The notes beneath the pieces were generated by a model that made no database searches, was not told the DNA's origin, and saw only the letters and a list, made by a program, of their open reading frames with translations. Of a stretch of DNA of 64,000 nucleotides, positions 6,321 to 10,141 are shown one piece after another. The translations under genes were made by a program, and so were the position numbers. This DNA is from Shewanella sp. UCD-KL21 (GTDB lineage: Bacteria; Pseudomonadota; Gammaproteobacteria; Enterobacterales; Shewanellaceae): contig NZ_MPHK01000002.1 of assembly GCF_001957135.1 (NCBI RefSeq), forward strand, positions 18,124-82,123. Direction: 5' to 3'. Position 1 is the first letter of the stretch. The number at the start of each line of letters is the position of its first letter.

Positions 6321-8495
6321 CTAATGAATTTTGGCCGGAATAGCTAAACCAAAACTGTGCCACAAGAAACTGTATATATCCGCAGCTTCATCAATTTTCA
6401 TGGCAGTAGGTTTACCAGAGCCATGACCAGCATTGGATTCAATACGCATAATCACCGGCTTGTCTGCTTGTTGATGTTTTTGCATCATCGCAGCAAATTT
6501 AAAGCTATGCAGTGGCACAACGCGGTCATCATGATCTGCTGTCATCACCATAGTGGCAGGATAATCTCCTGGTTTGACATTATGATACGGAGAGTATGCT
6601 AATAATGCAGGGAATTGCTCAGCCACATCGGCGCTGCCATATTCACTGACCCAGGCCCAACCTATGGTAAACTTCTGAAAACGCAGCATATCGAGCACAC
6701 CGACCGCTGGCAGTACTGCGGCAAATAAATCAGGTCGCTGTGTTAATACCGCGCCCATCAATAAACCACCATTACTGCGACCATAAGCACCTAACTTTGA
6801 TTTGTTGGTGTAACCATTATCAATCAGGTATTCCGCAGCAGCGTAATAGTCATCAAACACATTCTGCTTTTTATCGAACATGCCTGCTTGATGCCAACTT
6901 TCGCCATATTCTGCCCCGCCGCGGATATTGGGAACGGCATATATTCCGCCCATATCAAGCCAGGCAATATTTGCAGGGCTAAAACGTGGTGTCATCGAAA
7001 TCGAAAAGCCACCATAGGCATAGAGCAGTGTTGGGTTGTCGCCATTAAGGCTTACCCCTTTTTTATAAGACACCATCATTGGAATACGGGTGCCATCTTT
7101 ACTGGAATAAAACACTTGCTCAGAAACGTAGTCATCGGGATTAAACGAAACTTTAGGCTGATTATATAAACTGGTTTCACCGCTTCTAAAATCAAACTTA
7201 TAAATCGTTTGCGGTTGCACATAGCTATTGAAGGCAAAATAAAAATAATCTTTACTGCGTTTTCCGTATGGGCCTAAAACACGCCCTTTACCTGGAAGCG
7301 CAACATCTTGCCTTTTGGTGCCATTTAAACCGTATATCGATACTTTACCTAATACATCATGTAGGTAACTCACTACAAAGTTATCATGGACAATCGCAAT
7401 ATCGTTAATGGGATCGCTAGACTCAGGGATAATGGTTTGCCAATGGGCTTTTTCTGGGCGATTAATATTTATCTCAATGACTTTTCCATTTGGCGCATCT
7501 AAATCTGTCTTAAAATAGAAGTGCTCTTCATCATTACCAAGGAAAACATATTGAGCTTCTAAATCGGTGATTAACTCAACCACTTTAGCATCAGCAGATT
7601 GCAGTGACTTATAGAAGAACCGATTGCGGCTATCAGTGCCTTGAGTGACAGTTAATAATAAGTAGTCACCCTTTTCGGTTATTTCAGCTCCAAAGCCCCA
7701 ATCTTTGTTTTGTGGTCGCTCATAAATAAGTATATCTTCAGCTTGCTGGGTACCAATTTTGTGGTAATACACTTTTTGATTAAAATTGACATCAGCCAGT
7801 GCATCGCCACCGACTGGTGCATCATAGCGAGAATAATAAACACCTTGGTTATTGGCGTCCCACGTGGCGGTTGAAAACTTAATCCACTCCAATTTATCGA
7901 CCAGCGCTGCGCCAGAGGCAATATCAATGAACTGCCATTGCTGCCAGTCAGATCCAGATTTTGAAACGCCGTAGGCCAGTGTTTTACCGTCATTACTGAC
8001 AGAAACACCAGATAGCGCAACGGTACCGTTTTCAGAAAGTGTATTGGGGTTAAGTAATTCTTTGGAATTGCCATCTTTGTCAGTTACATACAACACAGAC
8101 TGTGACTGCAAGCCGTCATTTTGATAGAAAAAAGTATTTGAGCCATGTTCAAATGGCGCTGACACTTTCTCAAAATTCCATAACGCTGTTATGCGATCAA
8201 CCACAGCTTGCTTATTGTTAATGTTATTTAAATACTGACTACCAAAATCTTGTTGTTGTTTAACCCACTGTTCAGTTTCTGGCGTATTTTGCTCTAAATG
8301 TCTGAAAGGATCGGCAACACTCACACCGTGTAGTGTTTCAACTAAATCTTGTTCGACTATATTTGGATAAGAATATTTAGTGGTACTTGTGACTTGTTCT
8401 ACCGTGGAGTCTGGTGCGTGTTGACAACCAGCAAGTACAGTTCCAAGGACAATGGAGAGTAGTGAACCCTGTAATAAGGGCATTTTTATTATCAT
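6321..8495 (-). CDS. Prolyl oligopeptidase family serine peptidase (S9A), lipoprotein
   Basis: This peptidase cleaves short peptides after proline. The 724-residue product has an N-terminal signal with a lipobox-like VLAGC near residue 23, so it may be a membrane-anchored periplasmic lipoprotein. A seven-bladed propeller domain (roughly 90-440) precedes the alpha/beta hydrolase domain. The catalytic triad is visible: Ser574 in GRSNGG, an Asp near 657 in DHDDRVVP, and a His near 691 in NAGHGSG. The ATG at 8495 has AGAAGG upstream. Length fits the family (680-730). The gene is monocistronic, with its own terminator. The propeller guards access to the active site, so the substrate is expected to be a peptide of up to about 30 residues. 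Confidence 0.93.
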   Translation of the reverse strand: MIIKMPLLQGSLLSIVLGTVLAGCQHAPDSTVEQVTSTTKYSYPNIVEQDLVETLHGVSVADPFRHLEQNTPETEQWVKQQQDFGSQYLNNINNKQAVVDRITALWNFEKVSAPFEHGSNTFFYQNDGLQSQSVLYVTDKDGNSKELLNPNTLSENGTVALSGVSVSNDGKTLAYGVSKSGSDWQQWQFIDIASGAALVDKLEWIKFSTATWDANNQGVYYSRYDAPVGGDALADVNFNQKVYYHKIGTQQAEDILIYERPQNKDWGFGAEITEKGDYLLLTVTQGTDSRNRFFYKSLQSADAKVVELITDLEAQYVFLGNDEEHFYFKTDLDAPNGKVIEININRPEKAHWQTIIPESSDPINDIAIVHDNFVVSYLHDVLGKVSIYGLNGTKRQDVALPGKGRVLGPYGKRSKDYFYFAFNSYVQPQTIYKFDFRSGETSLYNQPKVSFNPDDYVSEQVFYSSKDGTRIPMMVSYKKGVSLNGDNPTLLYAYGGFSISMTPRFSPANIAWLDMGGIYAVPNIRGGAEYGESWHQAGMFDKKQNVFDDYYAAAEYLIDNGYTNKSKLGAYGRSNGGLLMGAVLTQRPDLFAAVLPAVGVLDMLRFQKFTIGWAWVSEYGSADVAEQFPALLAYSPYHNVKPGDYPATMVMTADHDDRVVPLHSFKFAAMMQKHQQADKPVIMRIESNAGHGSGKPTAMKIDEAADIYSFLWHSFGLAIPAKIH

Positions 8496-8832
8496 TTTTA
8501 AGCAACCTTCTTTTGCATTGTGGCTTCATGCCTGAAAGTAATATACCTCAAAATATAATTATTGCGACAATCTGTATTTATTTAGTGATTACAAGACTAT
8601 TTCATAGGCTTATCACAAGATTATTTATAATAAAAATAAGTAGCCAGATACTTTAATTGAATAACTTAACAATTGATTATCATCAAATCTTGGGCGTTTA
8701 CGACTAAATATGCACACTAGATGATTATTAATTTACTTATTGCGCTTTTAGTTCATAAATGGGTGCTTAAGCGCTAAAGTCCAATCAAAAGTAGCATTAG
8801 TTTTTTTAATGCGAAGATGGAATTTTTCTAGT
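8496..8832. other. Non-coding interval upstream of the candidate small RNA
   Basis: This AT-rich interval separates the oligopeptidase start from the small-RNA promoter. Short open frames here have no ribosome binding site or protein-like composition. I see no feature beyond the oligopeptidase leader. Confidence 0.5.
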
Positions 8833-8861
8833 TTGTCAGCTTAGAGCAAAGTCTCTAATAT
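8833..8861 (+). promoter_or_regulatory. Sigma-70 promoter of the candidate small RNA
   Basis: A -35 box TTGTCA (8833-8838) and a -10 box TAATAT (8856-8861) are separated by exactly 17 bp. Transcription would start near 8868. No open reading frame follows before the terminator at 9015-9042, so this promoter has no other obvious purpose. Confidence 0.6.
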
Positions 8862-8867
8862 ATGCCT

Positions 8868-9042
8868 TGTTTTCAGGACATAGCTTATTAAGTTGACATA
8901 GCTTACTGAGTTATAGAAAACCAAGAACTTCTAGTTGATGTATCCCAATACCTCAACTTATCCCTGGTTCTTATGCTTGACTTCCTTCCTTGAATTTGTG
9001 AATACAAATTTTTTGCCCACTTTATTAAGTGGGCTTTTTTTT
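8868..9042 (+). ncRNA. Candidate trans-acting small RNA, about 175 nt
   Basis: Between a well-spaced promoter and a strong terminator there is a structured transcript without a plausible ORF. Visible elements, in order, are two 18-bp direct repeats (8877-8912) and a hairpin at 8933-8958 (10 of 11 pairs, loop CCCA), which may be closed further by AAGAAC (8923-8928) and GTTCTT (8967-8972). An unpaired pyrimidine stretch CTTCCTTCCTT follows (8981-8991), then a perfect 7-bp hairpin at 8993-9010 and a terminator hairpin with eight T. The pyrimidine stretch is complementary to Shine-Dalgarno-like purines and the U-tail is suitable for Hfq, as in many trans-acting sRNAs. I do not recognise the family. 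It could instead be a riboregulator without a downstream gene or an untranslated relic. Confidence 0.55.
9015..9042 (+). terminator. Rho-independent terminator of the candidate small RNA
   Basis: A perfect 8-bp stem (GCCCACTT with AAGTGGGC) with loop TATT is followed by eight T. It is one of the strongest terminators in the window although no coding gene precedes it on this strand. Confidence 0.9.
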
Positions 9043-9079
9043 GCCTGTTTTTCGAGAATAAGACACAAATAGTAGAGAC

Positions 9080-9107
9080 AAAAAAGGCCTAATCACCTGA
9101 CTAAGCC
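9080..9107 (-). terminator. Rho-independent terminator after motY
   Basis: On the minus strand a 9-bp stem with G-T wobbles (9086-9107, loop AGGT) is followed by a run of T. It begins 26 bp after the motY stop. Confidence 0.7.
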
Positions 9108-9132
9108 AATTAGACAATTTATCATCTGTAGC

Positions 9133-10002
9133 TTAAATCGTTTTAGAAATTTTAATCACGACTCGACGGTTGCGATCTCTTTCTTCTGAAAGTTGATTCG
9201 ATGCCACATGGCGTCTTTCACCATGACCGGTTTTATGAATTCTGCTTTGCTCAATACCACTGGCAACTAATAAATCGGCCACAGAATCGGCACGTCTATC
9301 CGATACCCTTTGGTTAACCGAACGCCCACCATAACTATCGGTATAAGCGTCAACAAACACTAGCTCAACATCAGGGTCATAAGATAAGTATTCCTGCACT
9401 CGGTTTAATTGATGCTTAGAGAAGCGGGTTAATGCCGTGCCGCCTGCTTCATAATTAAGTACAGTAAATGCGATATCGTCAAAACTATAAGGTAATAGCG
9501 TGGACAAACAAGAGCGGAATTGACGATATTCGCCACCAAAATTAGCTGCTGATAACCCTACCTCGACTTTATCGGTACGGTTGTACCAATCAGCATAATA
9601 AAATGTCGGCTGCATGCCTTTACTTAATTCTGTCAGCATCGACCAAGCGGCTTTACGCGGCACTTCACCGTTAAACTGCTTATGGTAGGTTAAGGTGGTG
9701 ATCTCTTTTGCATTAACGCCAGGTCGCCATTGGGGCGCTTTACTGATCAGCTGCGCCTCGGTGATTTGATCGGGTTTATTCCACATATCAAGACTAAAAT
9801 TCAAATTTAAGTCTTTACCTGCACGACTCGTGAAAATAGCTTTGCCGTATGCAGGGATGTCATGTTCAAGCCGGCACTCTATCGGGCTACTTTCGCTTAG
9901 ACGCCACATCGAGTCATCAAGAGACGCAACATATTGTTGTAAATCAGCTTGTGCTGAAGATACAAAACAAAAACTGCTTACTAAAAGTAATTTACGCCAC
10001 AT
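9133..10002 (-). CDS. motY: Sodium-type flagellar T-ring protein MotY
   Basis: MotY forms the T ring that docks the stator of sodium-driven polar flagella. The ATG at 10002 gives 289 residues beginning MWRKLLLV, with a signal peptide ending SSAQA; a longer start at 10026 lacks a ribosome binding site. The N-terminal half is the MotY-specific stator-interaction domain. The C-terminal half (about 180-289) is an OmpA-like peptidoglycan-binding domain with DAYTDSYGGR and the SDRRADSV helix. It is divergently placed from rnt, an arrangement common in Vibrio and Shewanella. A generic OmpA-family protein is the main alternative, but the N-terminal domain favours MotY. Confidence 0.9.
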   Translation of the reverse strand: MWRKLLLVSSFCFVSSAQADLQQYVASLDDSMWRLSESSPIECRLEHDIPAYGKAIFTSRAGKDLNLNFSLDMWNKPDQITEAQLISKAPQWRPGVNAKEITTLTYHKQFNGEVPRKAAWSMLTELSKGMQPTFYYADWYNRTDKVEVGLSAANFGGEYRQFRSCLSTLLPYSFDDIAFTVLNYEAGGTALTRFSKHQLNRVQEYLSYDPDVELVFVDAYTDSYGGRSVNQRVSDRRADSVADLLVASGIEQSRIHKTGHGERRHVASNQLSEERDRNRRVVIKISKTI

Positions 10003-10141
10003 AAAAACATCCCGATTGCTGGTCACATAATTTTTATCGGCAGTATTTAATTTTTCTTTAGCAGAATTATTCGCCGATCAAACATGACACCGAGGCGCAG
10101 TTTTAGCATAATAGCCGCCAGAATGAAGAATGAGGTTTTTA

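Follow-up and report, generated by a model that had tools for sequence, protein, structure and literature searches.

What is encoded between the prolyl oligopeptidase gene and motY in Shewanella sp. UCD-KL21, and to which regulatory circuit might it belong? At positions 8833-9042 (forward strand) of the window, by which we mean the whole stretch of 64,000 nucleotides that was analysed, a sequence-only reading had proposed an unrecognised small RNA. Comparison with related genomes confirms the prediction of a compact small-RNA gene at this position that is composed of a promoter, hairpins, the stretch CUUCCUUCCUU and an eight-T terminator. The functional unit probably starts further upstream, at a GcvA-type box at 8796-8810. 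We favour, with a probability of about two thirds, the reading that the locus encodes a GcvA-activated base-pairing small RNA that stands in for GcvB. The earlier interpretation is supported as regards the small RNA, and it missed both the GcvA-type control region and the link to GcvB.

The predicted promoter has its −35 element TTGTCA at 8833-8838 and its −10 element TAATAT at 8856-8861, with the 17 bp spacing described before and a match to 9 of 12 consensus positions. Such a match alone proves nothing, because promoter-type sites between 8500 and 9400 are about as frequent as in shuffled sequence (four against a mean of 3.0, sd 1.7). The promoter scan was dropped as evidence for this reason, and it is the conservation of the promoter in the alignment that counts. 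The RNA that would start here has a predicted minimum free energy of −44.9 kcal/mol, compared to a mean of −27.7 for shuffled sequences (z −4.85; none of 200 shuffles as good), in line with the three hairpins and the eight-T terminator that had been proposed to frame about 175 nt. Within hairpin 2 the inner stem shows two-sided changes in seven of its eight pairs. Terminator-like sites number two between 8500 and 9400 where 0.3 are expected; the one that ends the RNA has its stem at 9015-9034 and eight T at 9035-9042, and the eight counted pairs of this stem are formed in 56 of 56 distinct rows of the alignment. The earlier statement that no plausible ORF is present holds as well, since no reading frame is conserved over the 60 aligned rows, in which the longest closed ORF varies from 9 to 48 codons. 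The coordinates of all features are collected in Table 1.

Table 1. Features of the small RNA locus, its control region and its neighbours, in positions of the window.
Feature	Position	Strand	Basis or remark
Prolyl oligopeptidase family gene, divergent neighbour	6321..8495	-	Peptidase_S9_N and Peptidase_S9 domains
GcvA-type box ATTAG-N5-TTAAT	8796..8810	.	one mismatch to ATTAG-N5-CTAAT; centre 8803
Putative second, weaker GcvA-type element, right half CTAGT	8818..8832	.	centre 8825; AATTTTTCTaGTTTGT conserved
Sigma-70 type promoter TTGTCA-17-TAATAT	8833..8861	+	sequence; kept in the alignment and in distant family members
Small RNA, about 175 nt	~8868-9042	+	start inferred from promoter; fold z, family presence, covariation
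Hairpin 1, outer stem GUUUUC/GAAAAC	8869..8921	+	predicted fold; outer stem 97.3% of cells paired
Hairpin 2, outer stem AAGAAC/GUUCUU, inner stem strongly covarying	8923..8972	+	predicted fold
Conserved core GGUUCUUAUGCUUGACUUCCUUCCUU	8966..8991	+	ACTTCCTTCCTT in 59/60 rows
Hairpin 3	8992..9011	+	perfect stem in the window's clade; UUUGUUGAUUGC instead in 55/60 rows
Intrinsic terminator, 8-bp stem and eight T	9015..9042	+	terminator scan
Terminator-like site for motY	9107-9086	-	terminator scan of the gap
motY, convergent neighbour	9133..10026	-	MotY_N domain; NCBIfam MotY model below its cutoff

The gene is conserved well beyond the window. A sequence search of 99 related genomes gave a match in all 60 that belong to the same genus, a count that includes the genome of the window, and among the 39 others in one, there by a short terminator match only. 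A covariance model of the small RNA (R1), built from 60 loci, found the RNA in 144 of the 146 genomes of Shewanella's family, with one copy each (genome-wide searches of more than 40 genomes were run with stricter filters, under which weak matches are lost). Matches of R1 outside the family came from three of 394 genomes drawn from the order (L156-L158; 37-39 bits), and these were rejected because they lack the core pattern and have no oligopeptidase, motY or rnt gene adjoining. A search of public genome contigs with the core pattern returned 71 stretches, all of them titled Shewanella. The neighbourhood is largely kept: motY lies inside the fetched flank at 55 of the 60 aligned loci, the other five being one contig end and four short flanks, and oligopeptidase, motY or rnt adjoins 19 of 24 further loci; three of these 24 belong to the same genus. 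In S. oneidensis, motY carries the locus name SO2754 (PMC3120886).

The stems of the RNA covary. In the alignment 144 cells are changed on both sides of a pair, compared to 44.9 in shuffles and with none of 500 shuffles as high, a comparison that has to be read with the caveat that related sequences can exceed shuffles. When the partner was slid, 6-39 two-sided cells were obtained; this control leans in favour of the structure, because part of the structure derives from an RNAalifold consensus built on that very alignment and part from single folds. Overall, 95.8% of the stem cells are paired and 14 of 28 pairs show two-sided changes, and the hairpins, on whose conservation in other Shewanella the sequence-only reading had staked its claim, are kept. 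The most constant sequence of the RNA is GGTTCTTATGCTTGACTTCCTTCCTT, followed by TTTGTTGATTGC, which is present in 55 of 60 rows and missing from the window's clade (four rows) and from one more row. Among the 24 further, mostly distant loci, ACTTCC occurs in 22, GTTGATT in 21 and ACTTCCTTC in 14. In the window's clade (L001-L004) a perfect hairpin at 8992-9011 replaces the near-constant UUUGUUGAUUGC, a sign that some of the targets may have been lost in this lineage. By its own promoter, a structured non-coding predicted transcript, a terminator and covarying conservation the locus has the general features of a trans-acting small RNA. On this comparative evidence it is a real, unnamed and family-wide small RNA gene.

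Known families did not provide a name. The whole-window Rfam scan returned tRNAs only; four consecutive tRNA-Lys genes with the anticodon TTT are located at 11-602 on the reverse strand. In a permissive Rfam scan of 8500-9400 the best match was anti-hemB, also called Burkholderia RNA 7 (RF02837), with 30.3 bits against a threshold of 49.5; when six relatives were scanned over their full length it reached 22-25 bits in four of them, and it was rejected as below threshold. The weak local matches to RprA, frnS, RyhB and DapZ, all far under threshold, were rejected too, and so was a phage origin, as there was no match in the phage collection. The proposal that the small RNA is unrecognised is thereby borne out: no Rfam family reaches its threshold, and the expected covariation across Shewanella is present. 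We found no report of this RNA in the open-access literature that was searched, although the small RNAs predicted for S. piezotolerans WP3 (PMC5471319) could include it.

Upstream of the promoter lies a GcvA-type control region. A phylogenetic footprinting study gives the GcvA box as ATTAG-n5-CTAAT and places two such boxes at gcvB, with centres at −65 and −43, of which the latter is less conserved; it also states that the pattern ATTA-n7-TAAT agrees with the RegPrecise GcvA site (PMC5002191). Another paper describes the GcvA site as T-N11-A with CTAAT (PMC3658693). The box at the small RNA fits ATTA-n7-TAAT, and its centre (8803) is 65 bp upstream of the inferred start at 8868. In all 60 rows of the same genus the best ATTAG-N5-CTAAT box lies 64-65 bp upstream of the inferred start; as the inferred start is the second aligned base, the box centre is 63-64 bases away from the first one. 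Perfect boxes are found in 41 rows, boxes with one mismatch in 14 and boxes with two or three in five; at most one mismatch is thus seen in 55 of 60 rows, compared to 0.75% of letter-shuffled upstream regions. In the further loci a box with at most one mismatch is present in 19 of 24, where the 5' end given by the model is uncertain in several. The centre of the weaker element (8825) is 43 bp upstream of the inferred start, and we infer that 8818-8832 may be a second GcvA box. In 15 of 60 rows (e.g. L018, L022, L048) the box is preceded, at a distance of 9-10 bp, by a CRP-like GTGA-N6-TCAC sequence, which the window lacks.

The genome of the window encodes GcvA (NF008352, 480.6 bits against a cutoff of 288), and perfect boxes are located 23 bp before the gcvA start and 124 bp upstream of gcvT. 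These two boxes are telling because the whole genome contains only ten perfect ones; boxes with at most one mismatch show no enrichment over the genome, with 314 found and 328 in the backward control. At the 30 Shewanella gcvA loci closest to the query, taken from 144 genomes, the exact box is present in 28. GcvA is found in 144 of 146 family genomes (E 1e-90), and the two without it (G437 and G440) are the two without the small RNA. This joint absence lends weak support, because both genomes are small (1.3 Mb and 2.3 Mb) and the 1.3 Mb genome is 62% complete. In one genome gcvA appears as two overlapping pieces (G035:C1:3240498-3241405, reverse strand), due to a frameshift or a sequencing error, and the small RNA is kept. 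Taken from sequence, control of the small RNA by GcvA is likely.

In E. coli, which served as the positive control, the RNA driven by GcvA is GcvB. The GcvB model (RF00022) exceeded its 42-bit threshold in none of the 146 family genomes and did so in 7 of 24 genomes of other families, each time with a GcvA-like gene adjoining, as judged by eye. Scores below threshold within the family (up to 33.9 bits) were inspected at seven loci and rejected, none of them being at gcvA; several low-score loci overlap a gene that we take to be rplI-like, or other open frames. Permissive scans gave no RF00022 match at 8500-9400 nor at L013, L023, L046, L168, L153 and L163. A report on Vibrio alginolyticus places gcvB between thiI and gcvA (PMC9409037). 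In Shewanella this adjacency is kept, with thiI in the fetched flank at 29 of 30 gcvA loci, and in the 700 bases before gcvA the GcvB core was found at none of the 30. Most of the Shewanella thiI-gcvA gaps that were read contain a divergent ORF of about 75-80 codons where Vibrio has gcvB (L207:2624-2857, reverse strand, and most of L214-L243). It begins with MFNLKS, a signal-peptide-like start, and lies behind a GcvA-type box; the one example searched belongs to no Pfam or NCBIfam family. The small RNA is not divergent from gcvA, which in the genome of the window is on another contig (G000:C78).

Three other explanations have to be weighed against a GcvA-driven RNA in the place of GcvB. LysR-type boxes resemble one another and such genomes hold many LysR proteins, which we counted in favour of a conserved trans-acting small RNA under a different LysR-type regulator, with a regulon other than that of GcvB (e.g. 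motility, respiration or general nutrient status). The CRP-like sites upstream of the box indicate that other inputs exist, and one paper calls the GcvA motif of Shewanella completely different from that of E. coli (PMC3223726). However, the very same box precedes gcvA and gcvT, and at the small RNA it is found at the published gcvB distance, so that we consider another regulator unlikely. A highly diverged but true GcvB that has moved from the thiI-gcvA gap to the oligopeptidase-motY gap would fit the similar promoter layout, and by eye the GcvB core AUGUUGUGUUUGCA resembles UUUGUUGAUUGCA of the RNA, ACUUCC being common to both. We nevertheless hold such a transposition to be quite improbable. 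Local alignment of four of the RNAs to seven GcvB genes, summed, gave p values of 0.27, 0.04, 0.055 and 0.17 against shuffles, uncorrected, the permissive scans are without a GcvB match, and the order of the elements differs. The R1 core of GcvB, AUGUUGUGUUUGCA, is absent from the alignment of the small RNA, in which 55 of 60 rows have UUUGUUGAUUGC in its place. These comparisons give no support for sequence homology to GcvB.

An action in cis, either on the convergent motY, as an antisense RNA or by blocking transcription, or as a decoy for an RNA-binding protein, might be suspected from the arrangement, since the RNA is oriented towards motY and only 90 bp separate the ends of the two. Yet there is a terminator-like site in both directions and the RNA stops short of motY, it is kept where motY is not found in the fetched flank (e.g. 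L153-L155), and conservation is concentrated in the RNA core and the promoter rather than in the motY-proximal end. We regard a cis element as very improbable.

The preferred reading is therefore that of a GcvA-activated small RNA acting by base pairing in place of GcvB. In such a model the small RNA gene would be a stand-alone unit that the LysR-type glycine sensor GcvA activates via the −65 box and the weaker box around −43; gcvB of E. coli is activated by GcvA through the same layout. By analogy with GcvB, plentiful glycine would lead GcvA to switch on transcription of the small RNA. The RNA of about 175 nt would probably be held by Hfq at its U-rich terminator and would pair through CUUGACUUCCUUCC, in most species also through UUUGUUGAUUGC, with mRNAs that serve the uptake or use of amino acids and peptides; by binding at their 5' ends it would block translation. 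In Shewanella and its family, where GcvB is not recognisable, the small RNA would take its place. A GcvB-like role is plausible from these sequence features. Tentatively, one may go a step further and envisage that an unrelated RNA at another locus has refilled the small-RNA post of the glycine regulon, with GcvB being lost beside gcvA and its promoter logic and job being taken over, so that a core regulatory RNA would have undergone non-orthologous replacement.

The pairing region is likely CUUCCUUCCUU (8981-8991), inside the core GGUUCUUAUGCUUGACUUCCUUCCUU. In the predicted fold of the window's species CTTCCTTCCTT at 8981-8991 is unpaired, and to this extent the earlier description of an exposed pyrimidine stretch stands. 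The stretch is not always exposed, because 31 of 60 rows, the window's species not among them, carry a GGAAGT near the 5' end of the RNA (first 25 nt) that can pair with the ACUUCC core of the same molecule. This pairing is seen in the folds of L020, L035, L046 and partly L013, and not in those of L001 and L060. It can form an alternative fold that would hide the pairing region. Translation control via the pyrimidine stretch, as proposed from the sequence before, remains a hypothesis.

The target matches obtained so far are leads, with an alanine/glycine symporter and two peptidases as possible targets in some clades only. The sequence GGAAGGAAGTCA, a perfect 12-nt match, immediately precedes an M61 peptidase gene, in its Shine-Dalgarno region, in four genomes that look closely related (M61 domain shown in one). 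Outside the small RNA there are ten GGAAGGAAGTCA sites in total, the four at the M61 start and six that by eye are not at a gene start; in G012 and G041 the match is lacking even in the small RNA. The leader of an S46 peptidase gene has a perfect 12-nt match to the second motif of the RNA in two genomes (domain shown in one). Leaders of agcS, a gene of the sodium:alanine symporter family (TIGR00835), match the second motif as well. This gene was chosen after a match had been seen and was read in 50 of the 52 genomes that have it. Its leader matches the RNA core of the same genome over at least 10 nt in 6 of 50 genomes, where dinucleotide shuffles lead one to expect 0.23 and none of 100 rounds gave more than 2; a match of 8 nt is seen in seven more. 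By eye and without a tree, these matches span at least three separate lineages, while in 32 of the 50 leaders the match is no longer than 6 nt and in the agcS of the window genome itself it is only 7 nt.

Across 60 genomes GCAATCAACAAA is more frequent than its backward-read control, and these 12-mer counts were set aside because the backward control is unmatched for dinucleotides or codons. From a longer list of GCAATCAACAAA sites we read 30 loci, one per genome, and 12 more. Seven of the 30 are the small RNA itself, three are agcS or S46 leaders and 20 lie inside frames or off starts; five of the 12 are near a possible start, three of those inside a longer frame. One site precedes a gene that is presumably fadE-like, and in G058, G003 and G010 (L368, L458, L459) the site falls within an open frame that has an internal ATG 20 nt further on. 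In an unbiased count over 1.2 Mb of one genome, 16 matches of at least 9 nt lay near starts against 9.5 (sd 4.2), which is not a clear excess, and this ranking was not used. A ranking of targets in a single genome by duplex energy, again without clear excess, was set aside, and trpD was rejected as a target since its 11-nt match, the best in G012, is missing from the 29 other loci that were read. The agcS, M61 and S46 genes fit amino-acid and peptide use, but the matches are clade-limited and the unbiased count gave no clear excess, hence we treat them as leads only.

In enteric bacteria and Vibrio the master small RNA for the supply of amino acids is GcvB, which represses mRNAs for the transport or biosynthesis of amino acids and peptides. 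No GcvB can be recognised in Shewanella, a genus that serves as a model for metal respiration and for life in the deep sea, and the small RNA described here offers a specific and testable answer to what the role of GcvA at the RNA level may be in this genus. If the answer is true, the promoter logic of a regulator can persist even though a different RNA has come under its control.

The likeness to known RNAs differs in kind. With anti-hemB (RF02837) the small RNA has in common a pyrimidine-rich stretch that is followed by a hairpin and a terminator, and the two probably share terminator and composition only. The likeness to RprA, frnS, RyhB and DapZ consists in a terminator and a U/C-rich composition. 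The comparison with GcvB (RF00022) reaches further and includes GcvA-type boxes around −65 and, weaker, −43, a sigma-70 promoter, a similar length, an intrinsic terminator, ACUUCC and a U/G-rich element, as well as the presence of the small RNA in the same 144 family genomes as GcvA. In contrast to GcvB, the small RNA is without a match to the covariance model and without convincing similarity, it is not located beside gcvA, it lacks the core AUGUUGUGUUUGCA, and its elements come in a different order. We do not file it under the GcvB family, but it is like GcvB in its predicted control and probably also in its role.
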